From: an uncultured Ignavibacteriota bacterium
Lineage (GTDB): Bacteria; Bacteroidota; Ignavibacteria; UBA10030; UBA8401
Reading direction: 5' to 3'
DNA length: 64,000 bases
Assembly: GCA_903884005.1 (NCBI GenBank)
Contig: CAISDA010000033.1
Span: 1 to 64,000, forward strand
Made by a program: the position numbers and the translations under genes
The notes under the pieces: model-generated
Databases searched by the model: none
Told to the model about the DNA's origin: nothing
Seen by the model: the letters and a program-made list of their open reading frames with translations, nothing else
Part shown: positions 1,174-37,341 of the stretch, in pieces
Layout: each line of letters opens with the position of its first letter
Position numbering within the stretch: the stretch's first letter is position 1

Positions 1174-1176
1174 GTG

Positions 1177-17227: not shown

Positions 17228-17258
17228 TTCATGTGCTTTCTATGCGTGCCGTCACGGC

Positions 17259-18767: not shown

Positions 18768-18814
18768 TGATGTCAGTTTTCCATGTTTATGAGTAAGTCA
18801 AGGTCGTGTCCCGG

Positions 18815-20314: not shown

Positions 20315-20316
20315 GA

Positions 20317-21150: not shown

Positions 21151-21271
21151 GATGTGTTCTCTTTGTAAATGAATGTTCGTTATTTCCGTGTGCGGCATCC
21201 GGTCCGCCGCCGTATCATTGACAGTGCGTACCCGATGCCACACACGAGGAGTAATGTGTGACGAGCGTGGT

Positions 21272-22591: not shown

Positions 22592-22670
22592 TGGCGCGTT
22601 CCTTTATGTCAATGGATGAGTTGGTGTGGTGTAACTGATACAATGTGAACTGCTCGAGCTATGACGTGTT

Positions 22671-23762
22671 TCATTTCGGGCCTAACGGAAACGGCATTCT
22701 ATGTTTCTTCACCTGCCAAATTCCCGACGGCACAACCAGCGGAATTGCCGCTTCGGGATCCCACGCACCGGCGAATGTCCATTTGGCATCGATCATCGAT
22801 TCGCTCGGGGAACCTTCCGCCTCGGTCAGGTTATCTCTGAACCACGCGAAATCTGCGCTGTCGCGATGGCAGTCGAAATAATAATACCGCGGCCCCCACA
22901 AGTAGGGAGAGGGCGAACTCGCGGGCCGGTAGATTGGCTTGTCTGCCATGTTCGCGGAAAACGTACAATCGAGCAGATAGAATTGCCCGTCACGGTGGTT
23001 CCGGCCAAGCGGGAATCCGGGAACGCCGTCGAAGCGGGAATTGCGTATCACAAATTTTTGATCCTTGTTCGTGCTGCCGTCGTGCCAGATGCTCGCAGAA
23101 CGATTGTGCCCGTAAAACCGGCTGTCCGTAATGTAGCACCATCCGCGCGGACAGACAAAATCGACTCCGCCCTCAAAGCAACAATCCGCATGGTAATACA
23201 TGCCGTTTTGGCGATTCCACAGACTGACGGTGTCGCCTCCGTCGGCGATCACGTTGCAGCCGAGGATCATCACGCGTGTTCCGCCGCCGCGTATGGCGAA
23301 TTGATGCTCTTCGGTCTGGTGCAGCGAACCGTAATTATTGTGTATCGTCATGTTCACAATGGTGAGATCCGTCACGGCGGAATCGATATTGACGACTCCG
23401 GCCCCCCAGTCGTTTCCGAACCGGCGCTCGTTCCAATTCTTTCTCAACTCGGCATAGACGATCCTCGTACTGTCCCTGTCCTCGCCGGCCAGCGTGATGA
23501 AGCTCGTCGTGATGTAGAGCTTTTCGTGGTAGACGCCTTTTTTAATGATGATCGTCACCGTGTGTGCATTGTGATGCGGCACGGAATTGATCGCCTCCTG
23601 GATGGTCGTGAAATCGCCGCTTCCGTCCTGTGCTACGACGATCTTCGTATATTCCGAGGCGGCCGCCGGCTGCAGACACGCGGCCATGGCCCCCAGCGCG
23701 ATCACCGCTGTGCCCGAGGCGTACAGGAAAAGCAGTGCTGCAATTCTATTGTGTGTTCTCAT
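22671..23762 (-). CDS. Secreted pectin methylesterase (CE8)
   Basis: 363 residues from the ATG at 23762; one TTG codon earlier is in frame but unlikely. It has a signal peptide ending near 'QPAAASEYTKIVVAQDGSGDF'. The parallel beta-helix family signature 'VVAQDGSGDFTTIQEAI' is followed by 'GDTVSLWNRQNGMYYHADC' and 'GGVDFVCPRGWCYI', which hold the catalytic aspartates; the variant CPRG replaces the plant-type IFG, as in some Bacteroidota enzymes. It removes methyl esters from pectin. Stop of lacI and start of this gene overlap by one base (TGATG), so translation is coupled to the regulator. Confidence 0.93.
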   Translation of the reverse strand: MRTHNRIAALLFLYASGTAVIALGAMAACLQPAAASEYTKIVVAQDGSGDFTTIQEAINSVPHHNAHTVTIIIKKGVYHEKLYITTSFITLAGEDRDSTRIVYAELRKNWNERRFGNDWGAGVVNIDSAVTDLTIVNMTIHNNYGSLHQTEEHQFAIRGGGTRVMILGCNVIADGGDTVSLWNRQNGMYYHADCCFEGGVDFVCPRGWCYITDSRFYGHNRSASIWHDGSTNKDQKFVIRNSRFDGVPGFPLGRNHRDGQFYLLDCTFSANMADKPIYRPASSPSPYLWGPRYYYFDCHRDSADFAWFRDNLTEAEGSPSESMIDAKWTFAGAWDPEAAIPLVVPSGIWQVKKHRMPFPLGPK

Positions 23763-24862
23763 CAATCCAGAGAGTCAATGCCCGTACTCGCCGCTTCGAG
23801 ACTCGCGGCCGGCTGATAGTAGATTTTTTTCGGCACCGCCACTTTCCGAATGCATGTGTCGGCAAGTTTCAGTGTCGTGCCCAGCACGACGTGCCGCGGC
23901 GTATATTCTTCAGCCGACTGCAAGCTCGCAAGCGTTACTTCCATTGCCACCTTGCCTAATTCGGACACCGGCTGTTCGACGCAACTGATACGCGTGGACA
24001 GGAAGCGGTTCGCAATCCCGCTGCCAAAACACATGATGTCGATGTCATCGGGGATCCGTATGCCGAGTTCTTCGGCGGCGCGATAGACTCCGAGCGCCAT
24101 CGGGAATGTGGCGCAGAAAACGAATTCAGGCATTTCGTCCGATTCGCAGAGTTTCAGAAAATCGCGGTAGCCGTCTTCTTCGCCGAATCCGCTGTAGATC
24201 ATCCATTCGGGACGTATCGGGATGCCATGCTTTGCAAGCGCGTCGGTGAATCCCAGCGTGCGCTGGCGGCCGATGTTCACATGCTCGTATCCTCCAAGCA
24301 GCGCGAGCGTGGTGTACCCCACATTGATGGCGTGCTCTACCGCCTTGAATGTACCGCCCCGGTCGTCGTTGGACACCGTGTTGAAACCCGGTTCGTCGAC
24401 GATGCGGTCGACGAACGTCAGCGGCACTCCCATCTCCTGCACCTTGTGGAAGATCGCGAGGTCGGTCGTCTGCTGCGTGATGGACATGATGAGCGCATCG
24501 ACACGCATCGAGAGGAGCGACTTGATGTGGTAGAGTTCCCGCTTCGCGTCCTCCTGTGAAACGGTGAGGATGATCTCGTAGTTGTTCTCGAATGCAACAT
24601 CATAGATCGTCTCGATCATTGTCGAGAAGAAATAGTGCGCGATCTTCGGCACAACGACGCCGATCGTATTCGAATGCTTCGACGATAAATTGCGGGCCAT
24701 GTAATTGGGGAAATACCCCAGGTCTTTCGCGATCTTTTTCACCTTCTTCGCGGTTTCGCGCGAGATGTCCGGATGGCCGCGCAACGCTTTCGACACCGTC
24801 ACTTTGGAGACACCGAGTTTGCCCGCAATATCGGAGAGCGTTACTTGTTGGGTCTTCTTCAT
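23762..24862 (-). CDS. LacI-family regulator of the pectin operon
   Basis: 366 residues. The N-terminal helix-turn-helix (about 8-28, 'TLSDIAGKLGVSKVTVSKAL') and hinge 'LGYFPNYMARNL' are followed by a periplasmic-binding-type effector domain (about 62-345). ATG with AAAGGA site. It lies in the middle of the operon it probably controls and would therefore be autoregulated. An AATCGATT palindrome with central CG lies at about 24883-24890, within the 37-nt gap before the gene. The operon promoter at 29352-29380 carries LacI-type boxes. The effector is likely a uronate or KDG-like intermediate (inference from context). Confidence 0.93.
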   Translation of the reverse strand: MKKTQQVTLSDIAGKLGVSKVTVSKALRGHPDISRETAKKVKKIAKDLGYFPNYMARNLSSKHSNTIGVVVPKIAHYFFSTMIETIYDVAFENNYEIILTVSQEDAKRELYHIKSLLSMRVDALIMSITQQTTDLAIFHKVQEMGVPLTFVDRIVDEPGFNTVSNDDRGGTFKAVEHAINVGYTTLALLGGYEHVNIGRQRTLGFTDALAKHGIPIRPEWMIYSGFGEEDGYRDFLKLCESDEMPEFVFCATFPMALGVYRAAEELGIRIPDDIDIMCFGSGIANRFLSTRISCVEQPVSELGKVAMEVTLASLQSAEEYTPRHVVLGTTLKLADTCIRKVAVPKKIYYQPAASLEAASTGIDSLD

Positions 24863-24899
24863 ACTCTATGTCCTTTGATGCAATCGATTACGCCGGCAG

Positions 24900-26414
24900 T
24901 CATCGCCGCGTTTCGCGAGCATGGTCGAGCAGCCATGAAAACAAATTGCGAGCGGCTTTAATATTTTCAAAGTCCACCGGCAATCGTCGATTGTCGATAT
25001 ATTCATTATAGAGCCAGGGATCTCCTACTGCGAACACTGTCCCCTTGCCAACCTTGGCAATGGCCATCAGCACGACGCCGTTTTCTGTGAGCAGCGCTTC
25101 GGCAGGCTGCGTGACAGTGATGGATGAGACTTCCTTCGTGTAAATTTTCTTCACGCCGTCGAAGATGGGATGCGCCGGAAACACGTCGCTCTTGCCCATG
25201 TCAAATTTTGTGCCCTCAACCTTGTGGTAACTGTCCTCGTTGAAGTGCATGCCGAATTTTTCGGCGAGCAGATTGAAATGCTCGATCTCCGCGTTCCCTT
25301 TATCGTTTTCGAAGATTGCCAGCACGCCGCCGGCGTTCACCCACGAGGCGATCGCTTCTGCCGACGCGGCATCCATGTAATGCGGCGTCGGAGATTCAGC
25401 CGGCGTATCGGGATCGACAATGACGTAGACGCCGAACGGCTGCAGGTCCTCCCGTGTCGGAGCCTTGCATAACGTATCGCAGTCCGCGCCCATGCGGTCG
25501 ATCAACGTGCCAAGCACTGAAAATCCGGAATTTGCGGTATCCTGCCACACATAATGAAACCCAAACGTCTTCGCGCCGACGGTCTTCGTTTCCGCATTAA
25601 AATAATTGTCCAGCCCGACAACCTTATGCAGGCCGTTCACGTGCACATCGGCGGGATCCTTTAAGAGCGCAGACAGCGGGAGCGACGTTTCCTTCACTCC
25701 CTCCACGACCAGTTTCGCCATTTCGATGGCGCCGAATTTTGTGAAGTGCGTGTTGTCGCCGTTGCCGTCGGGAAGCGCCTTATAGACGCCCTTTGGCACA
25801 CCGGCGAGAAAATAGCGTTTGGATCCTTCTTCTCCGGCCTGCGTGAAGACCTTCAGGCTTTTCGCGTGCAGGTCAATGAGGGCCGTTTTCTCTTCGCGCG
25901 CCACTTCGCGCACGACTGCCGGATAGTCTCCGTGCTGGTCGACGAATGCGCCCTTCGCATCGTACTTGCGGCGATTCACCGGTGTCAGCAGCACGGGGAT
26001 CGCCCCTTTGGCTTTCGCCTCGCGCACGAAGCGGATCAGATTCTGCTTATACGTCGTATGCGGCGCGGCGAACCGGAGCGAGTCGCTCTCTTTCGCATCG
26101 TTGTGCCCGAACTGGATGAAGACATAATCGCCCGGCTGCAGCTTCCCGACGACCGCCTGCCACAATCCCTGGTCGATGAAACTCTTTGTGCTTCGTCCGT
26201 TCATTGCCTCGTTCTCTATCACAACGCCGGGTTTGAAAAAGATCGGAAACATTTGTCCCCAGCCGACCTCGGGATTGCTGATGATCGGTTTATCGGCCAT
26301 GGTGGAATCGCCGATGAGGAAAATTCGCGTCTCGTTCCGGGACACGGCGCCGAGCATGACGAGTGCGGCGCAGCACAAGATGAGTAAACGGCCGAGCAGT
26401 GTGTGTGTTCGCAT
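24900..26414 (-). CDS. Rhamnogalacturonan acetylesterase with extra C-terminal domain
   Basis: 504 residues from the ATG at 26414, which gives a signal peptide (MRTHTLLGRLLILCCAALVM); an in-frame TTG lies further upstream. SGNH-hydrolase blocks are clear: 'GDSTMAD' (catalytic Ser37), 'QFGHNDAKE' and 'NTHFTKFGA' (catalytic His). These match CE12 rhamnogalacturonan acetylesterases, which take acetyl groups from the pectin backbone. From about residue 255 a second domain of about 250 residues resembles the glutamine-amidotransferase-like DUF4350 fold ('GVYVIVDPDTP...GGVLAIFEND...GKGTVFAVGDPWLYNEYID'). Such domains occur beside GH88/GH105 enzymes. It starts 4 nt after the GH105 stop. Periplasmic or secreted. 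Confidence 0.92.
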   Translation of the reverse strand: MRTHTLLGRLLILCCAALVMLGAVSRNETRIFLIGDSTMADKPIISNPEVGWGQMFPIFFKPGVVIENEAMNGRSTKSFIDQGLWQAVVGKLQPGDYVFIQFGHNDAKESDSLRFAAPHTTYKQNLIRFVREAKAKGAIPVLLTPVNRRKYDAKGAFVDQHGDYPAVVREVAREEKTALIDLHAKSLKVFTQAGEEGSKRYFLAGVPKGVYKALPDGNGDNTHFTKFGAIEMAKLVVEGVKETSLPLSALLKDPADVHVNGLHKVVGLDNYFNAETKTVGAKTFGFHYVWQDTANSGFSVLGTLIDRMGADCDTLCKAPTREDLQPFGVYVIVDPDTPAESPTPHYMDAASAEAIASWVNAGGVLAIFENDKGNAEIEHFNLLAEKFGMHFNEDSYHKVEGTKFDMGKSDVFPAHPIFDGVKKIYTKEVSSITVTQPAEALLTENGVVLMAIAKVGKGTVFAVGDPWLYNEYIDNRRLPVDFENIKAARNLFSWLLDHARETRR

Positions 26415-26418
26415 GATA

Positions 26419-27678
26419 TTAGTTGTGTGAGGTGTATTCGAGTTCAATTGCCGCAAGAAGAAACGGACCGTATCCTTTAAAATCGTTCGTCCGCTGCGGT
26501 TCGCCGACGTAGTATTCGTAGCTGCCGTCTCTGTACGGCGTCCCGCCGAGGCCTGCTACGCTGCAGACATGATGCAGATTGATCGTGCCGTCGGCATCGG
26601 TGGTGACAAACGTTTTGAGCATTCCGTCGAACGACTGCCGTGCAAGAGTTTTATACCGCGCGTCGAGCCATCCCCGGTGTGCTCCCCTGGCATACGCGTA
26701 GGTGACCATGGCCGAAACGGATGCCTCGAGATAATTGCCCCGACGCCGCGGCTGGTCGACTACCTGGCACCACAGTCCGGTGTCCGCGTCGCGATACTTC
26801 TCCAGAGCAGATGCAAGGTGAACAAAGGCAGACACGAGCTGTTTGTGCTGAGGATGCGACACAGGGAAATATTCCAGCACGTCGGCAAGCCCCATCATGT
26901 ACCATCCCATCGCACGGCCCCAAAAATTCGGCGAGCAGCCGGTCTCGGGGTTCGCCCATTTCTGCTGCCTGCGTTCATCCCACCCATGGTAGAACAACCC
27001 CGTTGCGGAATCCCTCATGTGCTGTGCGGCCAGCAGAAACTGACGGGCAATGTCGTCGTAGGCCTTCGGTTGGTTGAACGCCGACGCGTACTGCGCATAG
27101 AACGGTTCGGCCATATAGAGGCCGTCGAGCCACATTTGATGCGGATAGATGCTCTTATGCCAGAAACCGCCGTCGCTCGTGCGCGGCTGCCCGGCAAGCT
27201 GTTGAAAGAGCGTGTCGATGGCGATGCGGTATCTCCGGTCCTTCGTCGCCTCGAGCAGATAGAAGAGCGGCCGTCCGGGAGCGATATGGTCTAGCTGGTG
27301 TTCGCTCATTTTATAGGTCGCGATGGATCCGTTCTCCCGCACATACTGATCCGAACAGTTCTTCACGTAGGCGAAATATTTTTTATCGTGCGTCGCACGC
27401 CACATGCGATGGAACGCCTCGAGCATGAGCCCCTGTTCGTAATTCCATTTCCCGGGCTTGCCCTCGGCTGAATACGTCACAGAGTCGGGATGGAGCCGAA
27501 GAAAATTATCGGCAATGCGCACGGCCCATCCTGCGGCGGCGGGCTTCGACGGCTTCACTGCTGCGAACACGCCGGCGCCGAAGACAAGCAGCGTCATCAC
27601 CAACAGCGCAACGGTACCGGTGCGGTGTGCGTGGTGCATTTGTATAGCCGGGTCCTTATGGTGTAGAGATGACTGCAT
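26419..27678 (-). CDS. Unsaturated rhamnogalacturonyl hydrolase (GH105)
   Basis: 419 residues. It releases unsaturated galacturonate from the ends of lyase products. Conserved (alpha/alpha)6-barrel elements are 'GKWNYEQGLMLEAFHRMW', 'HQMWLDGLYMAEPF' (catalytic Asp) and 'FWGRAMGWYMMGLADVLEYFP'. A signal peptide follows the second methionine (MHHAHRTGTVALLVMTLLVF); that ATG at 27639, with AAGGA upstream, gives a more usual signal peptide than the ATG at 27678 and may be the true start. Downstream RGAE begins 4 nt after the stop. The product feeds KduI. Confidence 0.92.
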   Translation of the reverse strand: MQSSLHHKDPAIQMHHAHRTGTVALLVMTLLVFGAGVFAAVKPSKPAAAGWAVRIADNFLRLHPDSVTYSAEGKPGKWNYEQGLMLEAFHRMWRATHDKKYFAYVKNCSDQYVRENGSIATYKMSEHQLDHIAPGRPLFYLLEATKDRRYRIAIDTLFQQLAGQPRTSDGGFWHKSIYPHQMWLDGLYMAEPFYAQYASAFNQPKAYDDIARQFLLAAQHMRDSATGLFYHGWDERRQQKWANPETGCSPNFWGRAMGWYMMGLADVLEYFPVSHPQHKQLVSAFVHLASALEKYRDADTGLWCQVVDQPRRRGNYLEASVSAMVTYAYARGAHRGWLDARYKTLARQSFDGMLKTFVTTDADGTINLHHVCSVAGLGGTPYRDGSYEYYVGEPQRTNDFKGYGPFLLAAIELEYTSHN

Positions 27679-27721
27679 GTGGCGTTCCCGTTCGGATCAA
27701 TTGCTCATATGTAACTCACAG

Positions 27722-27775
27722 AAACTCGCACCGCTTCGCGGTGCAGGCGAGATACCATCTCGCCCTACACTGCGT
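27722..27775 (-). repeat. Dispersed hairpin repeat, copy A
   Basis: In the 228-nt gap between the polygalacturonase and GH105 genes. On the minus strand a TGTAGGGCGAGATG block folds with ATCTCGCC, and a second hairpin GCACCGC-GAA-GCGGTGC follows. Related copies with the same order of parts lie at 43552-43620 and 51711-51775. Similarity between copies A and B extends about 25 nt further upstream (a CATTGA-GCA-TGTAG frame). Not a simple terminator, since no T-run follows. Confidence 0.75.
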
Positions 27776-27906
27776 CAATGGAACGGCAGCGAGTTCCTTC
27801 GAGAAAAAATTTCATCGTGGGCAAACAGACTGCGCTCCAAAGTGTCCATCGGCCTGCTTGCAGTACCGCGAGCGTGTGATCCCCCGTCGCCTGACCGGGG
27901 GAAGTG

Positions 27907-29304
27907 CTATTGCGAAATTTCTTTTCCGTTGATGAGCACGTTTGTCATGTGAACGCCGGACACGTGGTCCATCACGTTCGGCTTCTCGATGTTGGTGAAC
28001 GTGCAGTTCGTCAGGTTTAGATTGGTAACGGGCGCCCGCTCGTACGCATGAATGAGTATCGCGTACTCTCCCTTGGCGCACGTTACACTGTCGATGAAGA
28101 TGTTGCGGAGCATCGGCGTGAACGCGCCGGCATCTCCTTCATCATACTGGAAATCCACGATGATGGCCGCCTCGGCAACCTGTCCGATGCGTATGGCGCG
28201 CGCGTAAAAATTCTCAAGCAGACCTCCGCGGACTGAATTCGTTTTGAACCGGAGCGCACGGTCCAGCCTCGGACTGTCCATCTCGCAATGATCGACGAAC
28301 ACAGTGTTCACGCCGCCGGAGACTTCGCTGCCGATCACCACGCCGCCGTGGCCGTCGAGCATCCTGCACTTGGTGATGACCACATTCTTCGTCGGCACAT
28401 TCACGCGCCGTCCGTCGTTGTTGCGTCCGGATTTGATCGCGATGCAGTCGTCGCCGGTGTTGAACGATGTCGATGCAATGAGCACGTCTTCGCACGATTC
28501 CGGATCGCATCCGTCGTTGTTCGGGCCGAGCCCGGACACCGTCACATTGCTCACCGTCACGTTTTTCGACAGCACGGGATGAATGAACCACATGGGAGAA
28601 TTTTTCAGCGTAACGCCGTCGATGAGCACATTCGTGCATTTATACGGCTGGATAAAATTCGGCCTGAGGTAATGGCCCGTTCCGAAGACGCGGTCCTGCA
28701 CGGGCGTGCCATTGGCGCTAAACTCATTGAGCGCATTCTTATCGTCTTTTTGCGAGACGTCGCCTTTTTTCCATCCGTATTCTTTTTTTCCGCACCAGTT
28801 CCACCAATGCTCATTCGCTCCCTGCCCGTCCAACACACCCTCGCCCGTAACGGCGATGTTCGTTTGGCCGTAGGCATAGATGAGCGCGGAATAGTTCATG
28901 CACTCGACGCCTTCCCACCGTGTCGACACGACGGGAAGATAACGCTGCGGATCGGTGGAAAATCGGATCGTCGCTCCTTTGGCAACGTGCAGATTCACAT
29001 TCGACCGCAAATGGATCGCGCCCGTAAGATAGATACCATCGGTCACGGTGACTCGTCCCCCGCCAGCATCCGAACACGCACTGATCGCGCGGGCGAACGC
29101 CTCGGTGCAGTCAGAGACGCCATCGTTTTTTGCCCCATACCGGAGCACCGGGAAATCTTGTGCGGGAAAAACGGGAGGAATGATCCGCTTCATTATAATG
29201 GGACGCTGTTTCCATCCGTCAACACCAGAATCCGCACCGGATTGTGCATACACTGCAACGATCGTTGAGAAAAAAACAATTGCGGCCTTGAGAAGATAGT
29301 TCAT
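27907..29304 (-). CDS. Polygalacturonase (GH28)
   Basis: 465 residues with signal peptide (MNYLLKAAIVFFSTIVAVYA). All GH28 active-site motifs are present: 'NND' (262-264), 'GDD' (284-286), 'GHGG' (318-321) and 'RFK' (352-354, usual form RIK). The 'YGAKNDGVSDCTEAF' N-terminal beta-helix start is also typical. It hydrolyses the homogalacturonan backbone to galacturonate, probably exo-acting in the periplasm. It is the first gene of the pectin operon, 47 nt downstream of a canonical promoter with operator-like boxes. Confidence 0.95.
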   Translation of the reverse strand: MNYLLKAAIVFFSTIVAVYAQSGADSGVDGWKQRPIIMKRIIPPVFPAQDFPVLRYGAKNDGVSDCTEAFARAISACSDAGGGRVTVTDGIYLTGAIHLRSNVNLHVAKGATIRFSTDPQRYLPVVSTRWEGVECMNYSALIYAYGQTNIAVTGEGVLDGQGANEHWWNWCGKKEYGWKKGDVSQKDDKNALNEFSANGTPVQDRVFGTGHYLRPNFIQPYKCTNVLIDGVTLKNSPMWFIHPVLSKNVTVSNVTVSGLGPNNDGCDPESCEDVLIASTSFNTGDDCIAIKSGRNNDGRRVNVPTKNVVITKCRMLDGHGGVVIGSEVSGGVNTVFVDHCEMDSPRLDRALRFKTNSVRGGLLENFYARAIRIGQVAEAAIIVDFQYDEGDAGAFTPMLRNIFIDSVTCAKGEYAILIHAYERAPVTNLNLTNCTFTNIEKPNVMDHVSGVHMTNVLINGKEISQ

Positions 29305-29326
29305 AGTGATTCCCGAATGTGTTACT

Positions 29327-29348
29327 TTATCGGTTCCTTTACCGATAA
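29327..29348 (-). promoter_or_regulatory. LacI-type operator of the pectin operon
   Basis: Perfect 8-bp inverted repeat TTATCGGT-N6-ACCGATAA, also readable as two 12-bp boxes (TTTATCGGTTCC, TTTACCGATAAC). It sits 4 nt downstream of the -10 element of the pectin operon and 23-44 nt before the polygalacturonase ATG, where a bound repressor would block transcription. The 19-bp block GTTCCTTTACCGATAACTT (29333-29351) recurs exactly at 37286-37304 before the TonB receptor. The assignment to the LacI protein of this operon is inference. Confidence 0.75.
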
Positions 29349-29351
29349 CTT

Positions 29352-29380
29352 AATGTATCAACAATACCAAATAATGTCAA
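29352..29380 (-). promoter_or_regulatory. Sigma70-type promoter of the pectin operon
   Basis: On the minus strand TTGACA (29375-29380), a 17-bp spacer and TACATT (29352-29357). It drives the gene series from the polygalacturonase to uxaC. The rest of the 369-nt gap 29305-29673 holds nothing else I can support apart from the leader of the divergent deaminase gene. Confidence 0.75.
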
Positions 29381-29673
29381 GTGATTTTTCACGTTTTACC
29401 CAGTCAGGCCGAATGCTTTTGCAGTGCTTCGGTAGTGCGCACGGCGGCCGGCCAGTGCTCCTCCGGCAAGCGCCGAGTACACTTCGTGTTCGAGTGATCA
29501 ATGTTCCGTTTCAGCATTCTAACGTTGTTGGAATTCTTGCGAGGCTTTCTTACATTTAGTATCCCGTGTGTTCAGGAAAAAAAATATTCCCGATCGGTGT
29601 GTTCCGAGGGAACACAGACACGACACTTCCATCCAGCAGGGATCGATTATCGACAGAAAGGAATGCAGCGCCC

Positions 29674-30165
29674 ATGGTATCGACACGGATCGATTGGCAC
29701 GAGTATTTCATGAACATTGCGGATCAGGTGGCAACGCGAAGCACGTGCGACAGGAAGCATGTGGGAGCGGTCATTGTCCGCGACAGGACGATCCTTTCCA
29801 CCGGTTACAACGGCAGCGTCAGGGGCGGTGTGCACTGCGATGACGCGGGACACGACATGGAGAACGGACACTGTGTGCGCACGGTCCATGCCGAAGCCAA
29901 CGCCGTGGCTCAGGCGGCGAAGAATGGCGTACGCATCGACGTGTCGGAAATTTATGTGACGGCGTCGCCGTGCCTCACGTGCTTTAAACTGCTTGCCAAC
30001 AGCGGCGTCCGCGTGGTCTATTATAAAGAATTTTACAGGGATGAACGCATCAGCCAGTACGCTCGGGAATCGGGAATCGAATTGGTCTTTATGGGGAAAC
30101 AGACGTCCGTGATACCGGGAGCGGACGATGTACCGGAACGGGAGCCCACACCTCGGGCAATTTAA
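29674..30165 (+). CDS. dCMP deaminase-like zinc deaminase
   Basis: 163 residues from the ATG at 29674 (AAAGGA 11 nt upstream); the frame is open upstream, but the family N-terminus 'RIDWHEYFMNIADQVATRSTC' begins here. Zinc site: 'HAE' (72-74, His ligand and catalytic Glu) and 'SPCLTC' (Cys100, Cys103). 'GYNGSVRGGVHC' is the dCMP deaminase/ComEB-type substrate loop. It likely deaminates dCMP to dUMP for dTMP synthesis. It stands alone on the plus strand, divergent from the pectin operon, and is followed by a terminator shared with the convergent gene. Confidence 0.9.
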   Translation: MVSTRIDWHEYFMNIADQVATRSTCDRKHVGAVIVRDRTILSTGYNGSVRGGVHCDDAGHDMENGHCVRTVHAEANAVAQAAKNGVRIDVSEIYVTASPCLTCFKLLANSGVRVVYYKEFYRDERISQYARESGIELVFMGKQTSVIPGADDVPEREPTPRAI

Positions 30166-30200
30166 AAAACAACGCCCCGGTACCGTCAGGTATCGGGGCG
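30164..30200 (-). terminator. Terminator between convergent genes
   Basis: Stem of 12 bp (CGCCCCGGTACC with GGTATCGGGGCG, one G-U pair, 4-nt loop). On the minus strand it is followed by a T-run (complement of 30164-30169), ending the 602-residue gene. The GC-rich stem may also stop the deaminase transcript from the other side. Confidence 0.85.
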
Positions 30201-30227
30201 CATGGCCAACACATACGCAGGCTCCTG

Positions 30228-32036
30228 TTACACAGGGGTCGGCGTGATGATGTTCATCAGTTCCTCTTCCAATGCGAGCAATTCGCGCCGCATCGTTTCC
30301 CGATAGGCCTCGGTCTCCTGAACGAGTTTGGGAATGAGCGCCTTGTAGTACGCGATCCCTTCCAGCATGTTCGCTCTAAAGAGAGTGAAGTACTTCTGTT
30401 CCTTCACGGTGAATGCTTCGATCTGCTTCGCGATCTCATTCCTGAGATAATCGACATACAGCTGCAGTTCATTGATGAACATGTTCGGACGGTTCGGATA
30501 CGCGATCAAGTTGATCCTGCCGTAAATGTGTCCGACCATCTCTTCCAATGATGCGATTTTTGAGAAGTACGCAAGATTCGGTCCGGGACATACGGCAACG
30601 GCGATCGGCTTTTCTTCCTCGTCCATGTCGCTGTTGATCAATCCCGATGCCGCAAGATCCTCGCAGAGGCAGGCTTTTTCGTAGACCTTCGATATTTTTT
30701 TCCGGATGACCTCCGGGGAAAAATCCTGGCTTTCCAATTGTTTGATCTTCAGCGCCTGATACTTTCGCGACGCGGTGCAGATCGGCGCCTCGGTAAACTC
30801 CGTATTCGACACCAGAAATTTTTTGGTGCACGGACTGCCCGGACGATCGTTCTCGATCCGTTTCGTGATGAGCAATTCGCTCGAACTGCCTCTCACGTTG
30901 TTGAACGGAATTCCGAGCGGCGATGCATCGCTTAAATAATAATCTTCTTTCTGCGCGTCGGCAAGCATCCGGCGTGTGGCTTCCTCAACGTTCGTCGCTT
31001 CGGGCACCAGCAGGAAGGGCGAGCCCCATCCAGTGCCGTCGACGCCGTGATACTCGCGGAGAAACTCGTCCTCTGCCGCGGTTCCAATGCCCCCCTGTAC
31101 CGTGACCCATACCGGAAGCGCCTGCGCAGGCACGGCAACTCCTTTGGCGCGAAGCGCCGCCGTATAGAGGTCGAACAATTCCACCGTCAATTCATCGCGC
31201 TTATTTTTAAATTCCTCGAGGATCGGCCCCAACAGCATGCCGTCTGTGGCAAAGGCATGGCCGCCGCAATTCAAGCCCGATTCGATCCGGTATTCGGAGA
31301 TCCAGATGCCCTTTTTCGCAAGGATCTTTCCCTGTATGAACGCGGAACGGAAATCACTCACCTTCAGGATCACCTGTTTTTTCAGTGTGCCGTTTGCATC
31401 GGGAAGAAATTCCGGACACTGCCCCATGTACGTGAACAACCGGGAATTCAGTCCGGCTGAGAGCACGACCGACGACTGCAGTTCGCTCTTGACAAACCCG
31501 CGCAGCGCGGCCACCGCATCGGTAAAGTCGGCTGAGAGCGCCACGCCTCCCACACCCACATTGACCTTATCCAGCTTCGTCATAATATTGACGTCGATCG
31601 ACCCGGCGACGATCCCGGCGCGCAATTCTTCCTGCATCGCAGCCTGCGCTTCCGCATCGGTCGTATTCGTCATTCGCTGATAGAGAGCCTTCAACGGAGA
31701 GCGGTCGGCTAGCATTTCGAAGTATTTAACGATCTCTCCGCGGCTTTCAAATGCCGATGCACGCAATTCTTCGAGCTGCTTGTGCACGGCACGGTGCACC
31801 AGGTTCAGATACTCCGTGATCCTGCGGGCCCTGTAATCCTCTTCTTTCGGAGAGATGGGCGTATATTCCTCGCCATAAACCGAGGCATAATGCTTGCGCA
31901 TATGCTCGATGAGAATGTCGTCAACAATGGAAATAACGGAAGAGATGCCGAAGCGGCCGACGCGAAGCGGTGTATCGATCGAAAACGCCAATCCCAGCAC
32001 AGGGATGTGAAACGAATGAACAGGTGAATCTTGCAT
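30228..32036 (-). CDS. Conserved 602-residue protein, possible nitronate-monooxygenase-like barrel
   Basis: I do not recognise a characterised family with certainty. The middle part has glycine motifs that recall FMN-dependent TIM barrels of the nitronate monooxygenase type: 'LNCGGHAFATDG' (about 266-277), 'VTVQGGIGTAAEDEFL' and 'VDGTGWGSPFLLVPEATNV'. A cysteine-containing C-terminal half follows ('RPGSPCTKKFL', 'EAPICTASRKYQ', 'KACLCEDLA', 'AVCPGPNLAYF'), then a helical, coiled-coil-like tail. No signal peptide or membrane segment, so cytoplasmic. ATG start. Long, Cys-spaced and clearly under selection; an FMN- or metal-dependent oxidoreductase role is only a suggestion. Confidence 0.8.
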   Translation of the reverse strand: MQDSPVHSFHIPVLGLAFSIDTPLRVGRFGISSVISIVDDILIEHMRKHYASVYGEEYTPISPKEEDYRARRITEYLNLVHRAVHKQLEELRASAFESRGEIVKYFEMLADRSPLKALYQRMTNTTDAEAQAAMQEELRAGIVAGSIDVNIMTKLDKVNVGVGGVALSADFTDAVAALRGFVKSELQSSVVLSAGLNSRLFTYMGQCPEFLPDANGTLKKQVILKVSDFRSAFIQGKILAKKGIWISEYRIESGLNCGGHAFATDGMLLGPILEEFKNKRDELTVELFDLYTAALRAKGVAVPAQALPVWVTVQGGIGTAAEDEFLREYHGVDGTGWGSPFLLVPEATNVEEATRRMLADAQKEDYYLSDASPLGIPFNNVRGSSSELLITKRIENDRPGSPCTKKFLVSNTEFTEAPICTASRKYQALKIKQLESQDFSPEVIRKKISKVYEKACLCEDLAASGLINSDMDEEEKPIAVAVCPGPNLAYFSKIASLEEMVGHIYGRINLIAYPNRPNMFINELQLYVDYLRNEIAKQIEAFTVKEQKYFTLFRANMLEGIAYYKALIPKLVQETEAYRETMRRELLALEEELMNIITPTPV

Positions 32037-32154
32037 ATAAATCCTTCTTTCAGTTCCTTTGCCACTCCCTGCTCCGCAATGTCCTCATCAAAATAGGAAG
32101 TGTAGTATTATTATAATTTCGCATTTTTTTCTCTTATATCAAAATCGGTAGACA

Positions 32155-32198
32155 CAAAAAAAATGGCGGGATGGGGGATTCACTCCCCCACCCCGCCT
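32155..32198 (-). terminator. Terminator of the receptor/pectate-lyase operon
   Basis: GC-rich stem of about 14 bp (GGCGGGATGGGGGA with TCCCCCACCCCGCC, one A-C mismatch, 4-nt loop), followed on the minus strand by eight T residues. It is placed 29 nt after the stop of the beta-helix gene. The remaining gap to 32037 is leader and promoter space for the 602-residue gene. Confidence 0.88.
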
Positions 32199-32226
32199 GA
32201 CACGCACCATTGTTGCCGAGGAGAAC

Positions 32227-33933
32227 TTATTTAGACAGCATCATTTTTTTCACGTTGCTGTACTCGCCCGCTCTCAGACGGTAGACATACATGCCCGATG
32301 CAAACCGCGATGCATCGAATGTGGCTGTATAATGTCCCGCATTCTTCTGTTCATTGACAAGCGTTGCGACGGCCTGTCCCAGCACGTTGTACACCGTGAG
32401 CGTCACAACAGACGCCTTCGGAAGATCATAGGCAATGATCGTCGCAGGGTTGAACGGATTGGGATAATTCTGCTCAAGCGAATATGCTTCGGGCGCCGTA
32501 ACGGCCGATGCAACACTCGTCACGGCCGCACCCCAGCGCGGATCTCCCGCTACTTTTCCATCCGTCGTGACCAACGAAGCGATCGTGGCTGCGGATCCCG
32601 AGATCTTGCAGCTCAGTGTATCAAAATAGAACTCTGCCGACTTGCGGTTGTAATCGTACGTCCAGTGTCCGGGCGATGCTTTGGTGAAATTCGGGTCGTT
32701 CGCGTTCTTTTCTTTCCCGTCTCCGCCATCGACTCTCGGCCTGTAGATCCACCGGATCAATTGCGTCATGAGTGCAGGAGTTTTGGCCAATTTGATGCTG
32801 ACCTTCTTGAACTCATTGACAGTATCTTTTCCCAATACGCCCAGCCGCGTGTTCATTCCCCACGTCAATGCCGGGCCTGCATTTTGGTAATACGGCCCCT
32901 TCGGAGCCGCCATCGACAGCATCACTTGTCCTGAATCGGACACGGCATAATAATTGTTCGAGATGTCCCACTTTGCGGTCAGGTTCGGATTCGTCAACAC
33001 CCATGCCATTCTCGGCCTGCCGTTCACCGGATCCATTTCGCCCGGATCGCCGAACTCAACCTGACGGATCATTGCCGTATCGGCTCCAAGCGCGAAATGG
33101 TCCACAAGCACGTTGTTCTTGATCTGAAGAATGCCCGTGCCTGTCGAATCGACCCGGCCAAGGGATAAGAATCCGTGGTAGGATAGTGAATTGACGATCG
33201 TGTTATGATTGAAAATAAAATTGCGGATCGGGCCTTTGGTCGCCTGATAGTGACGGATCACACGATCCTGGAGATTCACGAACGTGCAATTTTGAATATC
33301 ACATGTGTCCACATCCTGGTCGCGCAAATCGATGCCCTTGCCTGCGCCGAAATTCGATGTTCCTTCAAAGCCCATATCGGCAATGATCGTGTTCGTGATG
33401 CGCACTGTCACAGGCTTTCCGTCTGTTCGCACGGCCTGGCCGTTGACCGACTTCAGGATACAGCTGTCGATGAAGATGCTGCCGCCGTTGCCTGAGGAGT
33501 TCAGCGTAATGATCGCCCCCTGCAACCGATCGAGGCATGAATCGAGCGGTTCATAGTATCCGGAGATGATAATATGCTTCAGGCTGATGGATCCGCCTGC
33601 GAGGCTGGCAAAGTTGCCGGCGGGATTGCCTGTCGTTCCGGGATACAGATACACTGTGGGATCCCATTTCCCTGCACCGTACTCCGCGCGGAATTTCAAC
33701 ACTTTGTTCGTCAGTGCGAGTGTCGTATTGAGCAGGTAAATGCCATTGCGTTTGAGCACGTACACGCGTGTACCATTTTTAAATTCAACGCTCGCAGTAT
33801 CGGCAAAGACCTGTGCATTGAGATACTGGTTTCCCGATGCAGAATAATCGGGGAGCACGAGATCTTGCCCGAACGACAGGAGCGGAACAGCAAACACGAG
33901 CACGAGCAACAATCTGTAGTATTTTTGTTTCAT
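32227..33933 (-). CDS. Pectate-lyase-like beta-helix protein with type IX sorting tail
   Basis: 568 residues with signal peptide (MKQKYYRLLLVLVFAVPLLSFGQ). The body is a right-handed beta-helix with repeated turns such as 'IFNHNTIVNS', 'ILQIKNNVLVD' and 'DISNNYYAV', as in the DUF4957/DUF5123 pectate-lyase-like secreted proteins of Bacteroidota. The last ~80 residues form a Por/type IX secretion C-terminal domain: 'LEQNYPNPFNPATIIAYDL', then 'VYNVLGQAVATLV' and 'ASGMYVYRLRAG'. It is thus exported across the outer membrane and probably surface-bound. It follows the TonB receptor by 61 nt in one operon, so a role in attacking pectin outside the cell is likely; catalytic residues cannot be named. 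Confidence 0.88.
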   Translation of the reverse strand: MKQKYYRLLLVLVFAVPLLSFGQDLVLPDYSASGNQYLNAQVFADTASVEFKNGTRVYVLKRNGIYLLNTTLALTNKVLKFRAEYGAGKWDPTVYLYPGTTGNPAGNFASLAGGSISLKHIIISGYYEPLDSCLDRLQGAIITLNSSGNGGSIFIDSCILKSVNGQAVRTDGKPVTVRITNTIIADMGFEGTSNFGAGKGIDLRDQDVDTCDIQNCTFVNLQDRVIRHYQATKGPIRNFIFNHNTIVNSLSYHGFLSLGRVDSTGTGILQIKNNVLVDHFALGADTAMIRQVEFGDPGEMDPVNGRPRMAWVLTNPNLTAKWDISNNYYAVSDSGQVMLSMAAPKGPYYQNAGPALTWGMNTRLGVLGKDTVNEFKKVSIKLAKTPALMTQLIRWIYRPRVDGGDGKEKNANDPNFTKASPGHWTYDYNRKSAEFYFDTLSCKISGSAATIASLVTTDGKVAGDPRWGAAVTSVASAVTAPEAYSLEQNYPNPFNPATIIAYDLPKASVVTLTVYNVLGQAVATLVNEQKNAGHYTATFDASRFASGMYVYRLRAGEYSNVKKMMLSK

Positions 33934-33994
33934 ACAATACTCCGATGAGTTTTGTGAACTGTGGATATGAATTAGTAAACTGTGACGGTATCAC

Positions 33995-36900
33995 TTACAA
34001 CGAAATGCGCACGCCAACATCCGCAGTCAACCCGTATAACTCCGCCGTTCGCGGGATCACCCAGGTGGAACTGTTGTTTTTCAATGAGGTGGTTTCCTCC
34101 CTATTCGTGAGATTATTAATATTGAGCATTACCGCTATTTCATCGCTGAGTTTCTGTTTTAACGCAAGATCCCATTTTGAGAACGTGTTGACGACGATAT
34201 CGGCCTGTCCATCCTGCGAATACTGCTGCACGTATTCATCCTGGTAGAACACGGATAAACGCACGGAGAAGCCTCCGATATCATAGCCGAGCGCCGCATT
34301 GCCGTACAGCTTGGGCTGGCCTTCGGACTCTCTTTTATATTCCACGGGAACATGAAAATTTGTCACCGTGAGATGCGGATTGCCGCGAAGATCGTACGTG
34401 GTATCCGAATGCGACACGGTCTGGCTTCCGATGATGTATGTTTCAGAGCGCGTCAACGACACGTTGTATGACAGCGTGAAATTGCTCAGGTAGCCGGGCA
34501 GGAAGCCGAAGTTCAACTGATGTTCGAATTCAAAGCCCCACGCGTACGATGTGCGGAGTGAATTGTAGGGCATCGTCAGGTTGTGAAGCGAGCGCTGGTG
34601 AATGATCGATGCGAACGGCGCCGTGGTCTGCCACGTCATGCCCTGCGTCGCGAACAGTGAATCCACCTGGTCGACGCTCACGCCGCTCATCTGGTGATAG
34701 AGGTTGTCGATGACTTTATAAAAACCGGATATCGAAATCAACCCGATCGTGTTATCATGGATGAGCGTGTTGAGTTCGTAGTTCCAGGCGCGCGTATCCT
34801 TGATGTACGGGTTGCCGAGCGTGAACGTTGTGCCGCCGTTTCCGGAGATATAAAAATTTGCCAGACGCATATTATAATCCGGCCTGGCCAGGGCTTTGTA
34901 CGCTGCAGCACGCACCGTCAAATAGTCTGTTGGCCGCAGCGTCAACTGCAGATTGGGAAGCCAGATTGTTTCCGAGTACGTCGTGTTGGCTGTTTTGATG
35001 GTGTCCGCGATCTGTCGGATCACGATGGTCGAGACCCCGCCGTTTGTATAGTGCGATGTGTAGTCGTTCGATTCGCTCTCAACACGAAGCCCGGTAATGA
35101 GCGTCGCTGCCTGGCCTATGTTGAGCGTATTCATCAGATAACCCGCGCCCACATGCTCAGCCACCGCGTATTCGTTGAGGGCAGCTTGAGCGCTCGGTCC
35201 GTACTCGATCTCGCCGTTTGTAATCGAATTTTTGGTCAGGTCATACCAAAGCTTCATTGCGTCAACATTGATCAGCGGTGTCATCTTGTAGATGCCCAGC
35301 AGGTCGCGTGACGCCGCCGGATAGTCGATAAAATCGGAGAGTGCGGGACCCGACGACTTGCGGTGGAGATAATAATCCAGGAAGCGGGTCGTCTTCAGGC
35401 GCGCAACATCCACACCGACATCCGAGAATCCGTGAAGAATGTTGTTGTCATCCAATTCCTGCTGGTTCATATAGCGTGTCTTTTCCCTGTACTTTCCGCC
35501 CATCTTCACCGTGCCGGAGAAGAGGTCCGAGAGAGTATAGGTCCGCGCTATGTTGGCAACGGCCGTCCTGTCCCTGTCGTAGTTCGTCTGCGAATAGAAA
35601 ACGGACGTGGAGCATGCTGCGGCGGAAAAGTCGTTCAATGCAAAGGGAATAATATTTGTTTCCGGATGGTCGCGGCCGGACGGCACGCCGCCGATGACAA
35701 CACCCGGGCTCTCCGTAAACTTCATGGCAAAGTCGTAGGGATTGTCCGTCCTTGATTGTGCAAAGGAGGCGGTCCAATCGATGTCAAACCCGGCGAAAAA
35801 ATTGTGTCCCTGCACCGAGGTATTGACCGTGCTGATATCCGTTTGCGTGGTGCGGTAATTATAATCCATCGATCCGTTGCTGCCGGAGATGCCGACATAG
35901 GACCGGTTAAACAGCGTGTAATCTCTTCCCGTGCTGCTGTAGAGTCCGGATACCTTTACCGAGCCGCTGTCCGGCGTTTTAATGTCAACAATGGCCTGTC
36001 CCCCTTGCCGCGTGCGCACTTCATCCGTGAAGTCGACGGTGAAGGGCCCCATCCTGTAATCGATATTGGTCGGCGAGTTGGAGTTTTGGCTGTCTTTGTA
36101 ATATTGGTAGGCGTAGGTGATATCCTCTTTGCTGCGTATCTTTCGTTCGAGATTTCCCTGAAGCTGCACTCCGACGATGTCGTTAAAGAACCGTTCCGTA
36201 TACCGCGCGGACAGATCATATTGTTTCGCCGACGCCATCAATTTATTATAATCGCCTTTGAGGTCGAGGGTCAGCGTCCGCTCCGGCGGCGCGTTGCGCG
36301 TGACGAGATTCACCGTGCCGGCGATCGCGTCCGCATCCTGGTCGGATGTGAGCGACTTATAGAGTTCAATGCCTGCGAGTGATCCCTGGGAAATCGCGCT
36401 TAAATCAACGTCGCGCGTGTTCGGATCGGTCGCCGGGATCTTAACGCCATCGACGGTGATGTTGGCGAATTTCGAGCTCAAGCCGCGCAGCACTATTTTG
36501 GTCGCCTCGCCGCCAGATCGGATCAACGACACGCCGGGAAGACGGCCGATGGCTTCAGCCGCATTCGCATCGGACAGTTCTTTGATCTTTTCTTCGGACA
36601 CGACATTGACGATCGTCTTCGCCGTCAACTGCTGATTGATCGCCGCCATCTGGCCGCGTGCCTGGGCGGTAATGATCACCACCTCACCCTGCAGCACATC
36701 TCCCATAAGCTCGGCGTCCAGTTTCGTCGTCTTGTCGTTCACGATCGACACTGTTTTTTCCTTCGTCACATATCCCAGGTACGAGATTCGCACCGTGTAG
36801 GTGCCCTGGGGGATCCTGACAATTTTAAATTTTCCTTCGATGTCCGTGATGCCTCCCAGAGAGGTTCCCTTGAGGAAGACGTTCACACCGATGAGCGGGT

Positions 36901-37012
36901 CGTGCTGCAGCGAGTCGCTGACAGACCCTTGAAGCGATCCCTGCGCGTGCAGTGCGGATGAGATGAGAAGGAAGGAAAGCACGAGCCTTGGAGCGATGGT
37001 AGAAATTTTCAT
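33995..37012 (-). CDS. TonB-dependent outer-membrane receptor
   Basis: 1,005 residues from the ATG at 37012, chosen for its GGAG site and signal peptide (MKISTIAPRLVLSFLLISSALHAQ). An open frame continues upstream through the 12-bp repeats but is not protein-like. Domains: CarboxypepD_reg-like beta-sandwich (about 25-110, 'GSVSDSLQHDPLIGVNVFL'), plug domain (about 130-240, 'LPGVSLIRSGGEATKIVLRG', 'ITVDGVKIPATD', 'DAIAGTVNLVTRNAP') and a 22-strand barrel to the end ('TADVGVRISL'). It imports oligosaccharides with TonB energy. No SusD partner is encoded beside it, so it resembles the receptor class of Proteobacteria (CUT-locus type). Its promoter shares an operator block with the pectin operon, which makes pectin oligomers the likely substrate. 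Confidence 0.93.
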   Translation of the reverse strand: MKISTIAPRLVLSFLLISSALHAQGSLQGSVSDSLQHDPLIGVNVFLKGTSLGGITDIEGKFKIVRIPQGTYTVRISYLGYVTKEKTVSIVNDKTTKLDAELMGDVLQGEVVIITAQARGQMAAINQQLTAKTIVNVVSEEKIKELSDANAAEAIGRLPGVSLIRSGGEATKIVLRGLSSKFANITVDGVKIPATDPNTRDVDLSAISQGSLAGIELYKSLTSDQDADAIAGTVNLVTRNAPPERTLTLDLKGDYNKLMASAKQYDLSARYTERFFNDIVGVQLQGNLERKIRSKEDITYAYQYYKDSQNSNSPTNIDYRMGPFTVDFTDEVRTRQGGQAIVDIKTPDSGSVKVSGLYSSTGRDYTLFNRSYVGISGSNGSMDYNYRTTQTDISTVNTSVQGHNFFAGFDIDWTASFAQSRTDNPYDFAMKFTESPGVVIGGVPSGRDHPETNIIPFALNDFSAAACSTSVFYSQTNYDRDRTAVANIARTYTLSDLFSGTVKMGGKYREKTRYMNQQELDDNNILHGFSDVGVDVARLKTTRFLDYYLHRKSSGPALSDFIDYPAASRDLLGIYKMTPLINVDAMKLWYDLTKNSITNGEIEYGPSAQAALNEYAVAEHVGAGYLMNTLNIGQAATLITGLRVESESNDYTSHYTNGGVSTIVIRQIADTIKTANTTYSETIWLPNLQLTLRPTDYLTVRAAAYKALARPDYNMRLANFYISGNGGTTFTLGNPYIKDTRAWNYELNTLIHDNTIGLISISGFYKVIDNLYHQMSGVSVDQVDSLFATQGMTWQTTAPFASIIHQRSLHNLTMPYNSLRTSYAWGFEFEHQLNFGFLPGYLSNFTLSYNVSLTRSETYIIGSQTVSHSDTTYDLRGNPHLTVTNFHVPVEYKRESEGQPKLYGNAALGYDIGGFSVRLSVFYQDEYVQQYSQDGQADIVVNTFSKWDLALKQKLSDEIAVMLNINNLTNREETTSLKNNSSTWVIPRTAELYGLTADVGVRISL

Positions 37013-37118
37013 ACTGAAACTCCGTGAATGGTGTGACTGATTGGTTCGTCGCGTCAATATAGTGAAAAAATAAAGTAGTGTACAATCCCCTGTGTGAGCG
37101 GAGCTCACAATGCGCTCA

Positions 37119-37238
37119 TGCATCCACTCATGCATCCGTTCATGCGTCTGTTCATGCGTCTGTTCATGCATCTGTTCATGCATCTGTTCATGCATCTGTT
37201 CATGCATCTGTTCATGCATTCGTTCAAGCATTCGTTCA
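37119..37238. repeat. Ten-copy 12-bp tandem repeat in the receptor leader
   Basis: Ten head-to-tail units of 12 bp. Four consecutive units are identical (TGCATCTGTTCA, 37167-37214); the outer ones differ by one to four bases. The array lies between the operator/promoter (37286-37341) and the receptor ATG (37012), so it is transcribed as part of a leader of about 280 nt. As its unit is a multiple of three, all frames stay open, which creates spurious Met-His-Glu-Gln peptides. A copy-number change would alter leader length without touching the gene. Confidence 0.9.
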
Positions 37239-37280
37239 AGCCTGCCCGGCCGCCTCGGTCATACGTGCGCAATTCAGCAT

Positions 37281-37313
37281 GGATCGTTCCTTTACCGATA
37301 ACTTTAACGATAA
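37281..37313 (-). promoter_or_regulatory. Operator-like boxes before the TonB receptor
   Basis: Two adjacent 12-bp boxes TTTACCGATAAC and TTTAACGATAAA (37291-37314) preceded by a degenerate GGATCGTTCC. The block GTTCCTTTACCGATAACTT (37286-37304) is identical to that at 29333-29351. The boxes touch the -10 element, the same layout as in the pectin operon, so one regulator probably controls both. Confidence 0.72.
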
Positions 37314-37341
37314 AGATATATAAAACAAACGAATATGTCAA
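37313..37341 (-). promoter_or_regulatory. Promoter of the receptor operon
   Basis: On the minus strand TTGACA (37336-37341), a 17-bp spacer and TATCTT (37313-37318). The 458-nt gap 37013-37470 holds, in minus order, the cytochrome terminator, this promoter, the operator boxes and the 12-bp repeat array. I see no gene in it. Confidence 0.68.

Follow-up and report, generated by a model that had tools for sequence, protein, structure and literature searches.

Two operons and their shared promoter element

The first 64,000 nucleotides of contig CAISDA010000033.1 from an uncultured Ignavibacteriota bacterium (assembly GCA_903884005.1; this stretch, called the window below, opens contig C33 in an 89-contig genome of 4.53 Mb, here G000) carry on the minus strand two gene runs attributed to pectin use, operon A, from a polygalacturonase-like gene to uxaC, and operon B, headed by a TonB-dependent receptor gene, whose promoters share a short palindromic element that is the subject of this work: a predicted operator for a LacI-family regulator encoded within operon A (Table 1). 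An initial annotation, made from the letters of this DNA, had proposed that the two operons form one regulon under that regulator. It had named the second a TonB receptor/pectate-lyase operon, of which the receptor is borne out by its Pfam matches, whereas the supposed lyase matches no enzyme family in Pfam and has a Por secretion tail only.

The common promoter build that it described, TTGACA-17-TAnnTT, is seen at both operons (29352-29380 and 37313-37341, minus strand), and the 19-bp block GTTCCTTTACCGATAACTT is indeed identical at 29333-29351 and 37286-37304; the window has 15 repeated same-strand 19-mers, and all but this block fall in a tandem repeat at about 37050-37280. At each promoter lie two boxes of the type TTAnCGnTAA, 12 bp from centre to centre (the doublet). 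The doublet pattern is found twice in the window, against a mean of 0.0 in 100 dinucleotide shuffles, and the combined promoter and box pattern likewise twice, against a mean of 0.01. Two 12-bp boxes had been placed after the -10 element and read as merely adjacent; both boxes are present at both promoters, but the first box of B overlaps the -10 hexamer by two bases, and the doublet is one of overlapping operators with a fixed 12-bp spacing, a feature missed earlier. Promoter A is the top promoter-like match in 15000-29500, with one other at 10 of 12, in a scan that was overall at chance level (12 found, 10.8 expected).

The assignment of a LacI gene to 23762-24862, inside the first operon, stands as well. 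Its product matches the LacI helix-turn-helix (HTH) domain (PF00356, 50 bits, cut-off 27) and Peripla_BP_3 (PF13377, 83.5 bits, cut-off 26.5), the CcpA and PurR chains align to it across about 305-320 residues, and it is one of only three proteins in the whole genome with a LacI-HTH match. The HTH stretch VTVSKALRGH is identical across eight aligned orthologues, and the orthologues within the family lie in like pectin neighbourhoods. With lacI inside operon A, an operator at promoter A and such conserved surroundings, the layout is that of a local LacI sugar regulon.

Table 1. Features of the two window operons, of the DNA between them and of two further regions of the genome. Coordinates refer to the window unless a contig is named; aa, amino acids; GH, glycoside hydrolase family; MFS, major facilitator superfamily; KDPG, 2-keto-3-deoxy-6-phosphogluconate.
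Feature	Coordinates	Strand	Basis or remarks
-35 element TTGACA, promoter A (polygalacturonase-uxaC operon)	29375-29380	minus	sequence, promoter scan
-10 element TACATT, promoter A	29352-29357	minus	17-bp spacer, TG ahead of hexamer
Operator A, two LacI-type boxes	29326-29349	minus	predicted; CG centres 12 bp apart
Operator A, first box GTTATCGGTAAA	29338-29349	minus	
Operator A, second box GGAACCGATAAA	29326-29337	minus	
-35 element TTGACA, promoter B (TonB receptor operon)	37336-37341	minus	sequence
-10 element TATCTT, promoter B	37313-37318	minus	17-bp spacer; two bases common with first box
Operator B, two LacI-type boxes	37291-37314	minus	predicted
Operator B, first box TTTATCGTTAAA	37303-37314	minus	
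Operator B, second box GTTATCGGTAAA	37291-37302	minus	
GH28 polygalacturonase-like, first gene of operon A	27907-29304	minus	Pfam Glyco_hydro_28
GH88/GH105-type uronyl hydrolase	26419-27678	minus	Pfam Glyco_hydro_88
GDSL esterase-like (pectin deacylation presumed)	24900-26456	minus	Pfam Lipase_GDSL_2
LacI-family regulator, presumed binder of boxes	23762-24862	minus	Pfam LacI HTH, Peripla_BP_3
Pectinesterase-like	22671-23765	minus	Pfam Pectinesterase
MFS transporter (hexuronate presumed)	21272-22591	minus	Pfam MFS_1
KduI-like isomerase	20317-21243	minus	Pfam KduI
UxaA altronate dehydratase	18815-20314	minus	Pfam GD_AH_C
UxaB tagaturonate reductase	17259-18767	minus	Pfam Mannitol_dh; family and context
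UxaC uronate isomerase	15818-17227	minus	Pfam UxaC
Terminator-like hairpin with T-run, 3' of uxaC	15767-15802	minus	16 pairs, longest of 15 listed
SusC-like TonB-dependent receptor, first gene of operon B	33995-37012	minus	Pfam Plug, TonB_dep_Rec_b-barrel, CarbopepD_reg_2
Secreted protein, second gene of operon B	32227-33933	minus	Pfam Por_Secre_tail only
602-aa protein, frame next after Por-tail gene (possible member of operon B)	30228-32036	minus	no Pfam match
Deaminase-like gene	29566-30165	plus	
Third operon, contig C34 (L164)	6237-14249		second TonB receptor, 791-aa (no Pfam), PorV-like, 513-aa (no Pfam)
C40 region (L166)	565-8994		alginate-lyase-like, MFS, cupin, KduD-like, KDPG aldolase with C-terminal extension, PfkB kinase

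Distribution of the doublet in the genome and in relatives

At zero mismatches the doublet occurs in the whole genome only at sites A and B; with up to three mismatches two further entries appear (backward control 2), an overlapping reading of site B and C78:19751, the latter set aside as lying inside a reading frame. The promoter and box pattern has four nested matches genome-wide, all at A and B (backward control 0). The 11-bp single box TTTAYCGRTAA yields nine entries, one palindromic place being counted twice, against one in the control, those other than A and B having been viewed as sequence only, and a 15-bp extended box marks seven places (A, B, C34 twice, C40 and two within long reading frames; control 1); the single box was judged too weak alone to define a regulon and was used with context only. 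The consensus doublet from relatives, with up to three mismatches, finds five places (A, B, two neighbouring ones on C34, and C51), against four in the backward control, so that this list by itself proves little.

The C34 pair stands after a TTGACT-17-TATTAT promoter, ahead of an operon of four genes headed by a second TonB receptor. The same four-gene block lies behind a doublet in the same-genus genome G001 (73-85% identity), and in G006 all four genes of this type follow a GH28 gene behind a doublet, as do three of the four in a stretch of G005. Because block and doublet are conserved together in relatives, the C34 operon is a likely regulon member. The doublet is confined to the promoters of operons A and B and of the C34 receptor operon, and the regulon as first proposed, though both of its operons carry the operator, was drawn too narrowly, missing at least a third operon. 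On contig C40 a lone box stands between an MFS gene and a cupin gene (KdgF-like by context), with a short-chain dehydrogenase (KduD-like), kdgA and a PfkB kinase downstream, and this operon for the 2-keto-3-deoxygluconate (KDG) pathway is perhaps a fourth member.

Among relatives, 15 family sites were aligned, with the consensus AAGTTAnCGnTAAAGTAAACGATnA, whose column counts include one misregistered row (L036). A CG lies at the centre of the palindrome in both boxes, the first box having been anchored on its CG in the alignment and the second taken 12 bases on. Compared with the 16-22 nt palindrome usual for LacI operators, the symmetry of a single box can be followed over about 10-14 bp, and further out the neighbouring box takes over. 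In G001 the operator A block is identical while its flanks have changed, and the orthologue of promoter B (contig C304) keeps both boxes. The genes that come next after doublets in relatives encode GH28 and GH88/105 enzymes, TonB receptors, a Pel9A-like beta helix, UxaA (L091, L092, L095), UxaE (L116), KDPG aldolase (L090) and a DUF4861 protein (L116), and, after a weak doublet, UxaC (L104); others have no Pfam match (L088 at 776, L091 at 7520) or a Por tail only (L079, L100). In seven loci (G008, L090, L112, L113, L114, L115, L117) a doublet lies within about 240 bases before lacI itself. The search of relatives thus places doublets before the same kinds of genes as in the window, lacI included.

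Motif and spacing were then examined in loci fetched by LacI alone. A LacI scan of contigs gave 43 loci, labelled Bacteroidetes/Bacteroidota, Ignavibacteria, Ignavibacteriales, Ignavibacteriaceae, Melioribacter and one "bacterium" only; nine from genomes used for training were excluded, leaving 34 independent loci (the G001 copies of A, L035, and B, L069, are outside the 15 training rows). A doublet weight matrix, which holds the misregistered row L036 (score -8.2), gave 33 hits above 16 bits against 4 reversed, and 26 against 2 above 18 bits, overlapping hits in arrays being counted separately. A symmetrised single-box matrix, in correct register and blind to spacing, found 25 pairs with a spacing of 12 bp, compared with 2 in reversed sequence, and 0-6 pairs at each other spacing from 8 to 24 bp (3 at 13 bp; reversed 0-7) and a like result at other thresholds. 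The doublet pairs fall into 22 clusters, spread over 17 of the 34 loci, and six clusters have at least three boxes when weak outer ones are included. Adjacent sites with overlapping contact zones are present, at 12 bp instead of 13.

The doublet also co-occurs with the regulator. In the family, all 10 genomes whose LacI match reaches 48% identity or more show the promoter and box pattern, against 2 of the remaining 12 (Fisher p 1e-4; 3/10 and 4/12 in the backward control), seven of the 26 matches listed not having been followed as doublets (G002 C187, G005 C14:162641, G006 C56 and C63, G008 C14, G014 C370, G016 C223). In the class, where 107 of 391 genomes have a LacI match at E 1e-80, a strict form of the doublet occurs in 27 genomes, 24 of which have such a match, against 83 of the 364 others (p 5e-12; backward control six genomes, one with LacI), and 21 of its 37 places share a contig with the match (hand count). 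Since the strict pattern was designed after viewing the relatives' sites, its hits within the family carry some circularity; for genomes outside the window's family, counted separately for this reason, 16 of 18 with the strict doublet hold LacI (p 1e-8).

The relatives also bear on how the two operons arose. In G012 a single run on one strand, behind one TTGACA-operator promoter, holds receptor, Por-tail, GH28, GH88/105, GDSL, LacI, pectinesterase, UxaC, UxaA, UxaB and MFS genes, which makes the window operons look like one split run, each part of which kept the operator. Between the operons, in the window and in G001, sit the deaminase-like gene and the 602-aa protein gene, for which no blastp match was shown in the other family stretches scanned, as if inserted where the ancestral run split. 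Operons A and B could alternatively share their 19 identical bases only because one promoter was copied to the other, with no regulatory meaning, and the G012 arrangement makes a split with a copied promoter plausible; this is nonetheless scarcely credible as the whole explanation, since spacers and flanks differ between A and B, G001 keeps both boxes at both promoters despite changed flanks, and the same doublet stands at other promoters in relatives.

Within operon A, the GH28 and GH88/105 genes are separated by a gap of 228 bases; in G001 (L035, 4243-6852) the two are fused in one continuous reading frame. Terminator-like hairpins in the region number 15, against a shuffle mean of 14.9, i.e., without excess, and downstream of uxaC, also on the minus strand, lies an open reading frame of 3960 aa (3150-15032). 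In operon B the open frame of the receptor extends to 37231, past the ATG at 37012 that is its likely start. Much of the roughly 280 bases from operator B to this ATG is filled by a 12-bp minisatellite (ATGCATGAACAG and variants, about 37110-37230, minus strand), which is in frame with the receptor and would translate as MHEQ repeats. The AAAGGA of operator B is followed, seven bases on, by an ATG that opens a frame of 14 codons (37236-37280, minus strand), a possible leader peptide.

Proposed regulation and alternative readings

From these comparisons we consider it probable that operators A and B belong to the LacI protein of 23762-24862, which would act locally to repress the use of pectin and galacturonate. 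Both operators would consist of overlapping boxes paired with CG centres 12 bp apart (family consensus AAGTTAnCGnTAAAGTAAACGATnA), lying on the -10 element and the start, where bound repressor would block RNA polymerase; such overlap with these elements, at distances that vary from site to site, accords with repression. Release would be brought about by a compound of the pathway, with galacturonate, tagaturonate, KDG and unsaturated uronate as candidate inducers. The regulon would comprise operons A and B, the C34 operon and, via its single box, perhaps the C40 operon, and with lacI as a gene of operon A the repressor would govern its own supply. LacI binding, repression, autoregulation and co-induction at the doublets are predictions of this scheme. 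The joint control of receptor, secreted enzymes and uronate catabolism put forward in the initial annotation gains support, at the level of sequence, from the confinement of the doublet, its conservation and its co-occurrence with LacI.

Several observations weigh against this scheme. No doublet-matrix hit above 12 bits was found in 12 of the 34 independent loci, and 17 of the 34 lack a doublet by the two-box criterion, many of them being short contigs. On C40, the one KDPG aldolase gene that the genome has is preceded by a single box and no doublet. The strict doublet fits neither A nor B, matching in G000 only C34, and is absent from 83 of the 107 class genomes with a LacI match, where the 1e-80 cut-off admits distant LacI proteins (34-40% identical). 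With one mismatch, the class search does not discriminate (176 of 391 genomes matched, the backward control by eye often equal). The genomes are moreover not independent, 10 of the 27 with the strict doublet being from one genus (g59), and three have the strict doublet with no LacI match at 1e-80: G154, which is 99% complete, and the incomplete G014 and G364.

These last three genomes are what a different assignment would draw on, in which the boxes near pectin genes are the operator of another regulator, a LacI paralogue or a member of another family, and the operon's LacI has other targets. The genome encodes two further LacI proteins, and the operon's LacI is a predicted binder of the boxes. 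We regard this assignment as unlikely: the doublet co-occurs with the orthologue group of the operon's own LacI and lies close before lacI in the seven loci named above, LacI operators typically have CG at their centre (PMC4052901), and in stretches of 19-20 kb around the other two LacI genes the sole doublet-like pair is inside a reading frame. Behind each of those two genes (contigs C83 and C78; L044, L045) comes one whose product has the length of a TonB receptor (986 and 992 aa), which suggests LacI control of further polysaccharide loci.

That the block adjoins or overlaps the -10 element, and that 13 of the 22 independent clusters have their first CG at 29 or 30 bases downstream of the -35 hexamer, might point to a core-promoter or sigma-factor element instead of an operator. 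In the 15 family sites, however, this distance varies from 23 to 41 (25 in eight, 30 in two, and 23, 26, 39, 41 and 41 in the rest), ordinary -35 and -10 elements accompany the block, and the block is palindromic and repeated; on spacing this reading was rejected as very improbable. Hardly more can be said for an action in RNA, as a leader element or a CsrA-type AAAGGA site: the identical 19 bp do contain AAAGGAAC and would lie near the 5' end of both leaders, but in 8 of the 15 family sites the motif starts within the -10 region, ahead of a start point, by which spacing this reading is rejected too, and 13 of the 15 have AAAGT instead of AAAGG.

If the operon's LacI is the binding protein, the form of its operator raises a question of its own. 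We advance only tentatively, as a possibility somewhat short of even, that LacI proteins of this group recognise the overlapping 12-bp array as their operator instead of a single palindrome: dimers, two or three of them or else a pair in rearranged form, would bind cooperatively to boxes that have a half-site in common, and the length of the array would tune repression at each promoter. Such binding to overlapping, half-site-sharing boxes does not figure among the LacI-DNA complexes discussed in PMC4052901.

Comparison with known LacI systems

According to the genomic survey of this family (PMC4052901), most LacI operators are palindromes of even length centred on CG, and the majority of motifs are single palindromes of 16-22 nt; the typical character ascribed to the central CG boxes of the window in the initial annotation agrees with this. 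Autoregulation was found for 72% of the LacI regulators studied (Ravcheev et al., 2014; PMC4052901). The local sugar regulons described there resemble the present one in having a LacI protein with its own sugar targets, a central CG, sugar-acid pathways and, in some cases, overlapping sites. Sites about 13 bp apart precede 110 operons in that survey, which judges them likely to be functional though hard to square with known dimer structures, and suggests a special binding mode (PMC4052901). Overlaps there peak at 13 bp, whereas here a core of 10-12 bp recurs at 12 bp.

The tested example in that survey is Escherichia coli GntR at gntKU (PMC4052901). The gntKU promoter sequence holds ATGTTACCGATAACAGTTACCCGTAACAT, two overlapping TTAC-type boxes, and has TTACCGATAAC in common with the window block; the differences are a spacing of 13 instead of 12 bp, an identity of 27% between GntR and the window LacI, and gluconate genes as targets. 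By identity and spacing the window LacI does not qualify as an orthologue of GntR.

A further comparison is with the Bacteroides regulators UxaR, KdgR and UxuR, for galacturonate, KDG and glucuronate, respectively, which are LacI-family proteins from the same phylum and act on uronate catabolism (PMC4052901; PMC3878776). In Bacteroides thetaiotaomicron, however, the surface machinery for pectin is under hybrid two-component systems, and LacI regulators control mainly cytoplasmic steps (PMC3878776). In the window, by contrast with B. thetaiotaomicron, the same type of operator stands at the genes for receptor, secreted enzymes and catabolism. Among enterobacteria, with KdgR and ExuR, one regulator covers pectin enzymes as well as catabolism, KdgR belonging to the IclR family and ExuR to the GntR family.

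The terms Chlorobi and Ignavibacter are absent from the main text of PMC4052901, and among the papers brought up by searches on Ignavibacteria or Melioribacter with pectin, LacI or regulon, and on overlapping LacI operators, no title or abstract opening gave a description of such a regulon. The predicted system is thus a LacI regulon of a known kind in a lineage for which these searches showed no precedent, wider than those of Bacteroides, and in its operator array it offers a variant of the rare arrangement with overlapping sites. It assigns a pectin pathway, from surface to cytoplasm, to one LacI protein in an Ignavibacteria-related group, and predicts that the 791-aa, 513-aa and PorV-like proteins of the C34 operon belong to pectin uptake. 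The doublets and longer arrays form a naturally occurring series of LacI operators that overlap at 12-bp spacing, which makes the structural question posed in PMC4052901 directly testable.

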